A stretch of DNA of 24,139 nt from a virus. The stretch is taken from the IMG/VR virus record IMGVR_UViG_3300042561_000583, positions 1 to 24,139 of that record; one strand, 5' to 3'. This document shows, one piece after another, positions 9,703-19,276 of the stretch (positions within the stretch are counted from its first letter, which is position 1; every line of letters starts with the position of its first letter). The notes under the pieces were generated by a model that did no database searches, was not told where the DNA came from, and saw nothing but the letters and a program-made list of their open reading frames with translations. The translations under genes were made by a program, and so were the position numbers.

Positions 9703-9801
9703 ATGCCTGAATGGGATCTCACCCCACTCGTCGTGGCCGCTGTCGTGTTCGGCCCTGTCCTCGTCGCAACCCTGTTCGGGAAGGGGGCGCGCGATGAGTG
9801 A
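9703..9801 (+). CDS. 32-residue single-span membrane peptide
   Basis: ATG 9703 follows AAGGAG (9691-9696) at the ideal six-base spacing, the strongest ribosome site in the region; in-frame upstream starts lie before the promoter. The product is a short polar start, one hydrophobic span (LVVAAVVFGPVLVATLF) and a charged tail (GKGARDE). It is the first gene after the early promoter and overlaps the RecT-like gene by eight bases. Early single-span phage peptides often act on host membrane proteins or superinfection, but nothing here proves a role. Confidence 0.7.
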   Translation: MPEWDLTPLVVAAVVFGPVLVATLFGKGARDE

Positions 9802-13596: not shown

Positions 13597-13833
13597 ATGA
13601 CCCACTACCGAAACAAACCGATTGGCAAGCGGCTCTACCGCCCAACCTACTCGCAGGTCGTGCGGAACGGCTTGTCGATGATCGCCGCGCGCACGACGGC
13701 GACGAGCGACGAGGAGCGGCGCGCGCTCCAGTGGATCGTAGAGATGCACACATGGCACACGCGCGTCATTCAGCCCTACGCACACGCGGAGCACAAGCGG
13801 CGCAAGAAGCGCCCGGAAGGAGCGACAGCATGA
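13597..13833 (+). CDS. Small basic hypothetical protein
   Basis: ATG 13597 follows AAGGAGG (13584-13590) at six bases, a near-perfect site, so this start is secure. The 78-residue product is basic and Tyr-rich at the start (THYRNKPIGKRLYRPTYSQ), has a helix DEERRALQWIVEMHTWHTR and a Lys/Arg end (HKRRKKRPEG). It may bind nucleic acid. It restarts translation after the hairpin and leads a run of coupled small genes. Confidence 0.62.
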   Translation: MTHYRNKPIGKRLYRPTYSQVVRNGLSMIAARTTATSDEERRALQWIVEMHTWHTRVIQPYAHAEHKRRKKRPEGATA

Positions 13834-14429
13834 AGACGAACGACGAAGAGCACCCCGACATCAACGAGCTGCGCGCGCTGTGGTGCGAAGAAAAGTCGAA
13901 GAGCATGACCTTCCACGCGGAGGTGGAGAGGCTCCGCGCCGACCTCGCCACGCGCACCGCCGAGCGCGACGCTCTCGCAGCCGAGGTCGCCGCGCTGAAG
14001 GCTCAGGCCGACCCGCAGACCGATGCTCAGGTGCAGGAACAGGTCGCCTCGATTGTCTACGCCGCGATGCGCTTTGCCCGAGAGGATGTGACTCCTGAAT
14101 GGCAGGCTGGCAACAGTCACGCCGAGTACAGGGCCAGACAGGCCGCGACGGAGATAGCGTCGATGCTGCGGTGCGCGCTCAAGGCGCACGACCCGCTCGC
14201 GGAGATGTGGCGCGAGTTGGAGGCGTATCACGAGCAAGCCGACCGCGATGGACACGGGGAGTCGTGGCGGCGGATGTGCAGCGAGCGCACGGAGGCGGCG
14301 GCGTTGGCTGCGTCGCGGGTTGCGACATGGGTTGCGGCGCGGGCTGCGGGGTATGCGGCGCGTTCGTTTGCGCGGGACGCGGCGTGTGCGGTGGCAGAGA
14401 TCCGCCGCGCGAAGGAGGGGACGCGATGA
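13830..14429 (+). CDS. Coiled-coil protein, paralogue A of a duplicated pair
   Basis: ATG 13830 (ATGA overlap), GGAAGGAG upstream; the same frame runs far upstream as a shadow. The 199-residue product has a coiled coil (VERLRADLATRTAERDALAA), then a domain with DPLAEMWRELEAYHEQADRD and GHGESWRRMCSERTEAAA, and an Ala-rich helix ending AEIRRAKEGTR. The last 85 residues closely match the gene at 15415. The last codons (AAG GAG GGG) also form the ribosome site of the next gene. Function unknown. Confidence 0.65.
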   Translation: MKTNDEEHPDINELRALWCEEKSKSMTFHAEVERLRADLATRTAERDALAAEVAALKAQADPQTDAQVQEQVASIVYAAMRFAREDVTPEWQAGNSHAEYRARQAATEIASMLRCALKAHDPLAEMWRELEAYHEQADRDGHGESWRRMCSERTEAAALAASRVATWVAARAAGYAARSFARDAACAVAEIRRAKEGTR

Positions 14430-14800
14430 AAGACATCGGCCACACCTTCGGATGCGTTGACCCGTGCGCGCATTCAATCAAGTTCCACGGGACGGACATC
14501 AATCAGGTGATCCTTCAGATAAAGCCAGACGGCACCGTCCTGTGGAAGGGCCGCGAGGTCGAGTCGGACGCCGACTTCCGCGCCGCGATGATGGAGGTCA
14601 AACGACACCTGTGCGGCTCCGTTGATATGGATGCGCGGGTATTGAGCCTTCGAGGCGAATTGGACTTTGTGACCAAGGACCGAGATGCCCTGCAAGCCGA
14701 TGTGAAGCGCCTCACGGCGGCAGCGATGGTGCTGACGGTTATGGCCGTGGTCTGCTTCTCCGTACCGCTGATCGCGTACCTGATCTGGGGGGGCGCATGA
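14426..14800 (+). CDS. C-terminally anchored membrane protein
   Basis: ATG 14426 in an ATGA overlap; 124 residues. A soluble part with HTFGCVDPCAHSIKFHGTDI and ILQIKPDGTVLWKGREVESD leads into a short coil (LRGELDFVTKDRDALQADVK) and one C-terminal membrane span at about 98-120 (MVLTVMAVVCFSVPLIAYLI). No signal peptide; tail-anchored, with most of the protein probably in the cytoplasm. No family recognised. Confidence 0.62.
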   Translation: MKDIGHTFGCVDPCAHSIKFHGTDINQVILQIKPDGTVLWKGREVESDADFRAAMMEVKRHLCGSVDMDARVLSLRGELDFVTKDRDALQADVKRLTAAAMVLTVMAVVCFSVPLIAYLIWGGA

Positions 14801-15069
14801 GCGAATCCCGCTTCCGATCAGGCCCGCTCCCGTGCCTCCCGTGGTCGCCGTTCAGGCATGGCCGCGCGTGGTGGGTCGGCCATGTCCCGTGGTGGTGGCC
14901 GAGGCCGCTGTACGACATGACCACGAAGCAGCAGATCGGATGGGTGTGGCGGCAACGCGCCGCGCTCGTCCGCAACCTACACGCGGGGTGGATCGCGTTC
15001 GCCGACGATCAGACCGAACAGAACTTGAAGCCGCGCTGCGAACGGTGCGGGAGGGAGTGTGAACAGTGA
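14797..15069 (+). CDS. Trp-rich small protein with C-terminal cysteine motif
   Basis: ATGA overlap; 90 residues. It is rich in Trp and Arg (RAWWVGHVPWWWPRPLYDM, QQIGWVWRQRAALVRNLHAG) and ends CERCGREC, C81-x2-C84-x3-C88, which might bind zinc. No membrane span is convincing. The stop overlaps a GTG at 15066, but the next gene more likely starts at 15102. Family unknown. Confidence 0.55.
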   Translation: MSESRFRSGPLPCLPWSPFRHGRAWWVGHVPWWWPRPLYDMTTKQQIGWVWRQRAALVRNLHAGWIAFADDQTEQNLKPRCERCGRECEQ

Positions 15070-15089
15070 CCGAGACCAACCAACCAACG

Positions 15090-15104
15090 AAGGAGACACG
15101 AATG
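15090..15104 (+). promoter_or_regulatory. Ribosome site fixing the start of the Acb2/Tad1-like gene
   Basis: AAGGAG at 15090-15095, six bases, then ATG 15102. The alternative GTG at 15066 overlaps the previous stop but would only add 12 polar residues (TETNQPTKETR) and lacks a comparable site. Confidence 0.65.
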
Positions 15105-15428
15105 CAGGATCAGACCATCACTTGCCTCAATCACACCAACGAGAGCGGTCGCCCGGCGGGCGGATCGGTCACGGGAATCGGTCTTTACATCAACTGGCAG
15201 GACGGGCCACTCGGTCGCGGCGAGGAGCGCGTCTTGCCGAACGGCGCGTTCGTCGAGACCGTCATCGCTGCCGCAATCCAGCGCATCGAGTACTACCAGA
15301 CGCTCCAGTTCAAGTGCCGCGAGAACGCTCTCGCGATCACCAAACTGGAGGAGGCGCTGCATTGGCTCAAGGCCCGCACGAATCGCCGCGAGGCGCAGGG
15401 AACGGAGGGGACGCATGCAGGGTCTTGA
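15102..15428 (+). CDS. Acb2/Tad1-like cyclic-nucleotide sponge (anti-defence candidate)
   Basis: A 108-residue protein. Its N-terminal half is a small beta region with LYINWQDGP (28-36) and LPNGAF (45-50); its C-terminal half is a helical hairpin, IAAAIQRIEYYQ (55-66) then CRENALAITKLEEALHWL (72-89), KARTNRREAQ and the closing GTEGTH (100-105). The '.f.CrENalAitkLeeAl.wL..RT..R..rGvEGth' end is the hallmark I recall for Acb2/Tad1-domain proteins. Family members bind and hide signal nucleotides: CBASS cyclic di- and trinucleotides, and for Tad1 the Thoeris gcADPR signal. That blocks abortive infection. Which ligand this one binds cannot be read off. It lies among small coupled accessory genes. 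Confidence 0.72.
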   Translation: MQDQTITCLNHTNESGRPAGGSVTGIGLYINWQDGPLGRGEERVLPNGAFVETVIAAAIQRIEYYQTLQFKCRENALAITKLEEALHWLKARTNRREAQGTEGTHAGS

Positions 15429-15882
15429 AAAAACCGACACAACCGAACCCCCGCCGCTGACCGAGCGCGAGATGAACCAGTTCATCATGCTCGCCGCGCT
15501 GCCGACGCTCGAACGGGCGCTTGAGCGGCTGCGGTGGCTTGAGGCGGAGGTGGTTTCCCTCACGGCGCAGCGGGACGAGGCGTTCAAAAGCGCGATCAAC
15601 GCGGCGCTGAGGGCCGATGGCCGCAGGGCCGACCCGCTCGCGGAGATGTGGCGCGAGTTGAGCGAGTACCAGCCGCAAGCCGACCGCGATGGGCATGGGG
15701 AGTCGTGGGCGCGGATGTGCGAGGAGCGGACACATGCGGCGGCTTGTAATGCGGCGGGTGCTGCACGGAAAGCGTCGCGGGAAGCGGCGTGGTCTGCGTC
15801 GTATGCGGTGCGGGAAGCGGAGCATAGCTCGGCAACGGACGCCATCGCCGCGATCCGGCGGGCGAAGGAGGGGCAGCGATGA
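15415..15882 (+). CDS. Coiled-coil protein, paralogue B of a duplicated pair
   Basis: ATG 15415 overlaps the sponge-like gene by 14 bases, with GGAGGGG upstream inside that gene's end. The 155-residue product has a short polar start (TDTTEPPPLTEREMNQF), a coil (LERALERLRWLEAEVVSLTA), then DPLAEMWRELSEYQPQADRD, GHGESWARMCEERTHAAA and an Ala-rich helix ending AAIRRAKEGQR. This end matches paralogue A at 14429 nearly residue by residue in its core. Function unknown. Confidence 0.65.
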   Translation: MQGLEKTDTTEPPPLTEREMNQFIMLAALPTLERALERLRWLEAEVVSLTAQRDEAFKSAINAALRADGRRADPLAEMWRELSEYQPQADRDGHGESWARMCEERTHAAACNAAGAARKASREAAWSASYAVREAEHSSATDAIAAIRRAKEGQR

Positions 15883-16214
15883 GCGACGACACCCTTCAGA
15901 TCGCGAGCCGACGAACCATCATGGACGGCGAGGTCGTGACAATCGCGATTGGCTTCAAGGCTGTTGGCGGAATGATCGGCACTGAGCACGAAGCCTATGG
16001 TCCCTTTGAAATTTCAGCAAGCCGCAACGCCGTGATTGTGCATCAGGCAGTCGTTAGGACAGTTGCCGACTGCTATCTGCTCATCGACGCGATCCGCTTT
16101 GCGACAGCGGTTCGCATGAATCTCGGCAGTCAGCGGGATTCCCAGCCGTCACGATACCCATCGAAACCCACGACGATCTCGGCGTGGATCAAGGCGAAGG
16201 AGGGGGAGCAATGA
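15879..16214 (+). CDS. Hypothetical accessory protein
   Basis: ATGA overlap; 111 residues. Beta-rich first half (TIMDGEVVTIAIGFKAVGGM, GPFEISASRNAVIVHQAV) then a helix (VADCYLLIDAIRFATAVRMN) and a polar tail ending SAWIKAKEGEQ, whose AAG GAG GGG codons form the next gene's ribosome site. Codon use is slightly less GC-rich than its neighbours. No family recognised. Confidence 0.55.
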   Translation: MSDDTLQIASRRTIMDGEVVTIAIGFKAVGGMIGTEHEAYGPFEISASRNAVIVHQAVVRTVADCYLLIDAIRFATAVRMNLGSQRDSQPSRYPSKPTTISAWIKAKEGEQ

Positions 16215-18409: not shown

Positions 18410-19276
18410 ATGAACGCGAGACTCGGAGCCAAGGCTACGGCGGGCGTGACGGTCGTCGAGATCGACCTCAAGGCGAACGAGTGCCAGCAATTCCTCCTTC
18501 GCTCGGACGCGCACCACGACAGCACCTCGGCGGATCAGGCGATGGAGGAGCGTCACCTGAAGGAAGCCGTCGCGCGAGACGCGCTCATCTGCGACATCGG
18601 CGACCTGTTCGACTGCATGAACGGGCGGTACGACAAGCGCGCCGACCGCGAGCATCTTCGCCCCGAGTATCAGCACGGGCCATACATGAACCGCCTCGTC
18701 GATGTCGCCTACGAGCGGTATCGGCCCTACGCCGACAGGTGGCTGCTCATGTCCCCTGGCAACCATGAGACGGCGGTCGCGAAGCACAACGACTTCGACC
18801 TGACGCAGCAGCTCTATTCGCGGCTCAAGCCCCACGCGCCGCTCCTGAACCTCGGCAAGTACCAAGGGTTCCTGCGCATCCACTGCACGCGCGTCAACCG
18901 CACGGTGCGCTGCGGCTCCGCGACGATCGCCTATCACCACGGCTTCGGCGGCTCCGCGCCCGTCACGCGCGGCGTGATCCAGTCCAACCGGATGGCGATC
19001 TCGTATCCCGACGCGGACATCGTGTGGTCGGGCCACACCCACACCGAGTTCTATCTGTCGATCGCGCGCTTGCGGCTCATTCAGGACGCGGTCAAGCGCG
19101 ACGAGCAGATTCACATCCGAAGCCCTGGCTATAAGGAAGACACCTCGCACGGCAGCGGGTGGGCCGTCGAAAAGGGCTTCATGCCGCAGTCGCTCGGCGC
19201 GTGGTGGCTCAAGGTCTGGATCGAATGCGAGGGCCGAAACTACATCGTCCGTTATTCTCTGGAGGCCGCGAAGTGA
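18410..19276 (+). CDS. Calcineurin-like metallophosphoesterase
   Basis: A 288-residue enzyme with all metal-binding blocks in order: SDAHHD (D33, H35), GDLFD (64-68), GNHE (117-120), YHHG (175-178) and SGHTHTE (207-213). This is the two-metal phosphodiesterase/phosphatase family that cuts phosphate esters, often DNA ends or nucleotides in phages. A stop at 18392 limits the frame, so ATG 18410 is the first possible start; it lacks a clear ribosome site, and GTG 18446 is an alternative. An ATGCC/GGCAT repeat covers the ATG. It follows a terminator without an obvious promoter. Substrate unknown. Confidence 0.85.
   Translation: MNARLGAKATAGVTVVEIDLKANECQQFLLRSDAHHDSTSADQAMEERHLKEAVARDALICDIGDLFDCMNGRYDKRADREHLRPEYQHGPYMNRLVDVAYERYRPYADRWLLMSPGNHETAVAKHNDFDLTQQLYSRLKPHAPLLNLGKYQGFLRIHCTRVNRTVRCGSATIAYHHGFGGSAPVTRGVIQSNRMAISYPDADIVWSGHTHTEFYLSIARLRLIQDAVKRDEQIHIRSPGYKEDTSHGSGWAVEKGFMPQSLGAWWLKVWIECEGRNYIVRYSLEAAK

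Follow-up and report, generated by a model that had tools for sequence, protein, structure and literature searches.

The tad1 locus

The sequence studied here, referred to as the window, is a 24,139-base stretch of the uncultured phage record IMGVR_UViG_3300042561_000583, which matches no cultured phage at the nucleotide level. Its left part encodes a head-tail adaptor and a tail completion protein and then, at 9794, a RecT-like annealing protein with only distant similarity to four phages whose hosts are unrelated. Downstream of the RecT-like gene, a series of small genes lies between a Gp157-like gene (12831) and a RusA-like resolvase (16656). The tad1 homologue is one of these small genes; about 6 kb separate it from the head-tail block on its upstream side. 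The window also encodes a 288-aa calcineurin-like phosphoesterase at 18410-19276 (PF00149, 6.1e-6; PHROG 7339, DNA repair exonuclease), and no tRNA genes were found in it.

The tad1 ORF, exact from ATG to stop, spans 15102-15428 on the plus strand and encodes 108 aa; it is identified by PDB matches to CmTad1 and CbTad1, in both sequence and fold, and by an AlphaFold2 model. All four motifs quoted in an earlier, sequence-only reading of this DNA (INWQDGP, LPNGAF, CRENALAITKLEEALHWL and GTEGTH) are present in the 108-aa protein. Six nucleotides 5' of the ATG, the sequence reads AAGGAG (15090-15095, plus strand), a likely ribosome-binding site that is also present in the three nearest relatives of the window (L001, L002 and L003). 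An alternative in-frame GTG at 15066 would extend the gene over 15066-15101 on the same strand, adding 12 residues (VTETNQPTKETR) and overlapping the stop of the upstream gene. This GTG is likewise preceded by a purine-rich stretch and retained in L001-L003, but the ATG is preferred because the proteins of the family start there.

Cassette exchange and neighbouring genes

Comparison with related records demonstrates that tad1 behaves as an exchangeable, single-gene accessory cassette. L001 and the window are the same phage (99.95% across 8.4 kb), and L002 has 641 bp around tad1 in common with the window, at 97%. With L003, the shared block is a 369-bp unit (15060-15428, plus strand; 97%), and the rest of L003 aligns only as fragments of paralogous genes. 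The upstream gene, which encodes 90 aa (14797-15069, plus strand), is kept in L104 and L105, where another gene replaces tad1: L104 aligns with window positions 14174 to 15073 at 89%, the match stops after the upstream gene, and the tad1 position is held by a different, coiled-coil-like gene, followed by a RusA-like gene and then an integrase. The same arrangement is repeated in L105 as far as the contig end. From the block shared with L003 and the replacement in L104 and L105, it follows that tad1 is gained and lost as a unit cut near gene boundaries and thus moves between related phages on its own, as a one-gene cassette. That some relatives of the window phage are temperate is suggested by integrase matches in the L002, L003 (below the cut-off) and L104 records; no integrase was present in the window or in the record of L001, both of which are possibly fragments.

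Flanking tad1 are two paralogous accessory genes on the plus strand. The first (13830-14429; start approximate) has the C-terminal pattern DPLAEMWREL..ADRDGHGESW..MC.ERT..RRAKEG, and the second (15415-15882) shares its first 14 nt with the end of tad1. Each contains one copy of a 135-bp direct repeat (14189-14323 and 15630-15764; 79% identical), and three copies of the gene family are present in L002. Cassettes could plausibly be exchanged by recombination between the paralogue repeats. Each phage carries two to three accessory genes that share a part of about 50 aa (ADRDGHGESW.RMC.ERT), placed around its exchangeable genes and strongly alike in DNA (window 14189-14323 and 15630-15764; L002 972-2527); they might provide the homology by which cassettes are swapped. 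At the conserved RRAKEG tails of these genes (window 14394-14434 and 15847-15887), the codons GCGAAGGAGGGG seem also to provide the ribosome-binding site for the gene that follows.

The small genes surrounding tad1 had earlier been proposed as candidates for other anti-defence roles, an idea that was not upheld. No relevant Pfam or PHROGs families were found among them, and a search for relatives of three neighbours gave no support, so that the neighbours were rejected as candidates for further anti-defence factors. The gene at 15879-16214 has no IMG/VR relatives beyond the same phage, and the neighbours vary by locus: clustering of tad1 neighbours across the other fetched loci revealed no conserved partner, the small recurrent groups coming mostly from closely related contigs. 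Likewise, Tad2-like domains were absent from 12 virus records with tad1, which are possibly fragments.

Sequence evidence for Tad1 identity

Tad1-type proteins are molecular sponges for the alarm molecules that bacteria make on virus attack. In a phmmer search of PDB chains, the best match to the 108-aa protein was CmTad1 (8kbb; E = 4.6e-14), with phiKZ gp184 (8y6v) at about 1e-5 and CbTad1 at about 2e-5. When a profile of 63 relatives was used instead, CmTad1 improved to 1.1e-17 and CbTad1 to about 7e-15, and phiKZ gp184 was again matched. Among cultured phages, identity tops out at only about 51%, with SBSphiJ7 Tad1, named as such in its own record (51% over 76 aa; tblastn, 1e-16). Both proteins match PHROG 2428, the 108-aa protein at 1.3e-19 and SBSphiJ7 Tad1 at 8e-47. 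As judged from these searches, the likeness to Tad1 is far above chance.

The Pfam model for the group, PF24729 (Acb2_Tad1_hairpin), scores the protein at 26.3 bits (E 8.3e-6), missing its curated cut-off of 27 by less than 1 bit, and routine annotation would therefore leave the gene unnamed. Other Tad1 relatives, the phiKZ-like protein among them, likewise fall below the model, which is matched at E <= 0.01 by 45 of the 63 branch members. The miss is a limit of the model and not an argument against homology.

A profile built from the branch separates Tad1 from Acb2. Its scores were 114 bits for SBSphiJ7 Tad1, 80 for CmTad1, 65 for CbTad1 and 44 for the phiKZ-like protein, with all Tad1s between 43 and 125 bits, where CmTad1 and CbTad1 were represented by the C-terminal parts printed by phmmer and where SBSphiJ7 and one Vibrio protein were themselves among the profile rows. 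The Acb2 of PaMx41, in contrast, scored -1.0 bit (E 2.4), its frame being read through the stop that truncates it in the PaMx41 record, with X in that position. The annotation of the T4 106-118 kb region contains no Acb2 homologue.

Predicted structure

An AlphaFold2 monomer model made with the 63-sequence alignment reached a pLDDT of 89.2 and a pTM of 0.79. Strands are predicted at residues 7-12, 18-25 and 28-32, and two long C-terminal helices (51-66 and 73-99) form a hairpin, with pLDDT values of 97-98 over most of the helical part. The predicted N-terminal sheet, with three clear strands and a single bridge residue as against the four antiparallel strands of Tad1, is shorter than in the reference proteins.

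Searched against the PDB, the model matched 20 chains at E <= 0.001, all of them CmTad1 or CbTad1 (probability 1.00; TM 0.63-0.73, query length), including gcADPR-bound CbTad1 and cyclic-trinucleotide-bound CmTad1. The first match after these 20 chains had an E of 1.1, and no Acb2 chain was among the significant ones. In BFVD, the best fold match (TM 0.86) was a protein of Vibrio phage VP-1 that bears the name Acb2/Tad1 hairpin. The structure and profile check called for in the sequence-only reading thus returned only Tad1 chains as significant by fold, with the sequence profile in agreement. Membership of the Acb2/Tad1 group, as that reading had supposed, is borne out by the phmmer and profile matches to Tad1 chains together with the predicted fold; its further remark that the beta half is more like Tad1 than Acb2 also agrees with the N-terminally predicted strands and with a profile that favours the Tad1s over PaMx41 Acb2.

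An environmental branch of short Tad1 proteins

One IMG/VR scan found 132 stretches encoding relatives, of which 80 were kept; at least 80 IMG/VR loci therefore hold a relative, and the 80 loci yielded 64 distinct proteins. The members of this branch are phage proteins, mostly of about 106 aa, with the common motifs GNPAGG, W-Q-x-G-P-L-G-R-G, P-N-G-A-F-V-E and C-R-E-N-A-x-A-I-T-K-L-E-E-A-L. Compared with SBSphiJ7 Tad1, CmTad1 and CbTad1, they replace FQ by WQ, carry a four-residue insertion ahead of NG and have a shortened beta half. Tree building places the branch in one group (support 84/86, not decisive), with Vibrio phage proteins nearest.

Seven residues (N47, G48, R61, N75, R92, R96 and G103) are invariant in the 63-row alignment. 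CbTad1 residues F82, N92 and R109, which we take to line its ligand pocket, align with Y65, N75 and R92 of the 108-aa protein; N75 and R92 are among the invariant positions, and residue 65 is conserved as an aromatic. This alignment is offered as a lead only.

Five bacterial contigs with relatives belong to unrelated MAGs. Two contigs of one Omnitrophota MAG (L085 and L086, 10001-10330) each carry a relative at 50% identity, possibly as viral contigs binned with it.

The tad1 gene, which falls just short of the Pfam cut-off, is now placed in a large environmental Tad1 branch, and this branch is a promising place to seek new ligand specificities. Should it act like the rest of the Tad1 family, its many natural hosts would face nucleotide-signalling defences.

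A module fused to sponge domains

In L004 (2545-3078; the same as L121), a 177-aa ORF joins a module of about 72 aa to a Tad1 domain of this branch. The module, with the consensus YIGxK..PM.R..YN.YRGW..P.DE...DEGYLVEY.DGG..NHP.H.GYISWSPK...AYR, had no match among Pfam families, PDB sequences or PDB folds, and its predicted model is very confident (pLDDT 96.4). It also occurs in L122-L200 and in the cultured phages L115, L116, L118 and L119. Across 80 IMG/VR loci, its partners, which were assigned by BLAST to seed sequences with examples confirmed by Pfam, were Tad2-like in 58, the helical hairpin domain crAss001_48 in 14, and Tad1 in four (two Tad1 types), the remaining loci having Gp49_66 (one), crAss001_48 and Tad2-like together (one; L125), or unclassified partners (two). 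Since the module has repeatedly been fused to signal sponges of two unrelated kinds, crAss001_48 and Gp49_66 become candidates for the same job, and on the basis of the fusions these proteins may also be anti-defence signal binders. A literature search on fusions of the module found no paper on the subject, and this side lead is possibly weightier than the tad1 finding itself. A fusion of another, unusual kind is seen in Burkholderia phage FLC9 gp131 (L111, 78-1094), whose 338 aa combine an N-terminal cyclophilin-type peptidyl-prolyl isomerase (PF00160, 2.5e-44) with a C-terminal Tad1.

Proposed function

Homology to structure-solved Tad1s, the predicted fold and the conserved core residues make it quite probable that the gene encodes a Tad1-family sponge, sequestering Thoeris and/or CBASS signals. 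Tad1 proteins are described as hexamers whose dimer pockets take up gcADPR or cyclic dinucleotides and whose trimer faces take up cyclic trinucleotides; the ligands are sequestered rather than degraded (PMC12043709). By analogy with the family, the homologue would be made during infection, assemble as a trimer of dimers, and hold Thoeris signals (gcADPR isomers) uncleaved in its dimer pockets, and/or bind CBASS cyclic di- and trinucleotides, again uncleaved. With the signals sequestered, host effectors would stay off and the cell would live long enough for phage release. That the protein binds signal nucleotides and that its host therefore uses them, as the sequence-only reading supposed, is a reasonable expectation. 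CbTad1 and ColiTad1 also set off Panoptes in E. coli, probably because they take up 2',3'-c-di-AMP (PMC12657218).

It is doubtful, if by no means far-fetched, that the branch has kept the Tad1 fold and either switched ligand or lost sponge activity. The shortened beta half, the WQ for FQ exchange and the loop insertion are branch-wide, and in the tree the branch is separate from the Tad1s whose ligands are known, but core residues that are invariant or nearly so in 63 diverse members speak against loss of function. A more specific proposal is rather unlikely: that a dimer pocket rebuilt by the four-residue insertion and the reduced beta half now captures some signal outside those known for Tad1, the gcADPR isomers and cyclic nucleotides.

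That the protein is carried in the virion, injected or structural, and acts at entry rather than after synthesis in the cell appears very unlikely. The Tad1 of phiKZ is injected into host cells (PMC13282480), its solved gp184 (8y6v) matches the family, and some homologues, in Lactococcus phage 1706 and Bacillus phage P59, are annotated as structural proteins; here, however, tad1 lies well away from the head-tail block, among the genes between Gp157 and RusA, and the 108-aa protein does not have the N-terminal extension of the phiKZ-like protein. Finally, an Acb2-type sponge, composed of helices only and binding cyclic oligonucleotides only, is rejected as exceedingly improbable: Pfam does place Acb2 and Tad1 in one hairpin family, to which the protein scores 26.3 bits, but the branch profile gives PaMx41 Acb2 -1.0 bit against 43-125 bits for all Tad1s, the significant fold matches include no Acb2 chain, and a beta half is predicted.

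Comparison with known Tad1 proteins

Acb2 (PaMx41 gp24), also a nucleotide sponge, is named in the same Pfam hairpin family, but its sequence similarity is undetectable here and, by published description, it has no beta half. Within Tad1 proper, the loops of the N-terminal beta half line the gcADPR pocket. The 108-aa protein falls short of CbTad1 and SBSphiJ7 Tad1 by some 15 to 34 residues, which are missing from this beta half, and its four-residue insertion sits in the loop before helix 1; ligand specificity is therefore not transferable from either of these proteins. SBSphiJ7 Tad1 (UPI13470.1), the anti-Thoeris protein of Bacillus phage SBSphiJ7, is 51% identical over its C-terminal 76 aa, whereas its 142 aa include a longer beta half at the N-terminus and it has FQLGP where WQDGP is found here. 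CbTad1 (7uav, 7uaw, 8smd, 8kbe-8kbh) is about 15 residues longer and only about 20% identical over the structural alignment, yet it matches the predicted fold at TM 0.64-0.73 (query length) and its presumed pocket positions are conserved. The closest full-length sequence from cultured phages is the Tad1-like protein of Vibrio phages VP-1 and SD25 (44% over 97%; TM 0.86 between models), which is 18 residues longer and does not have the loop insertion. Finally, CmTad1 (8kbb, 8kbc, 8kbd), although 132 aa long, with another N-terminal beta region and without the four-residue insertion before NG, is the top sequence match, having in common with the 108-aa protein the hairpin motifs CRENA.AITKL and RT..RE..GTEGT as well as the FQ/WQ-x-GP loop.
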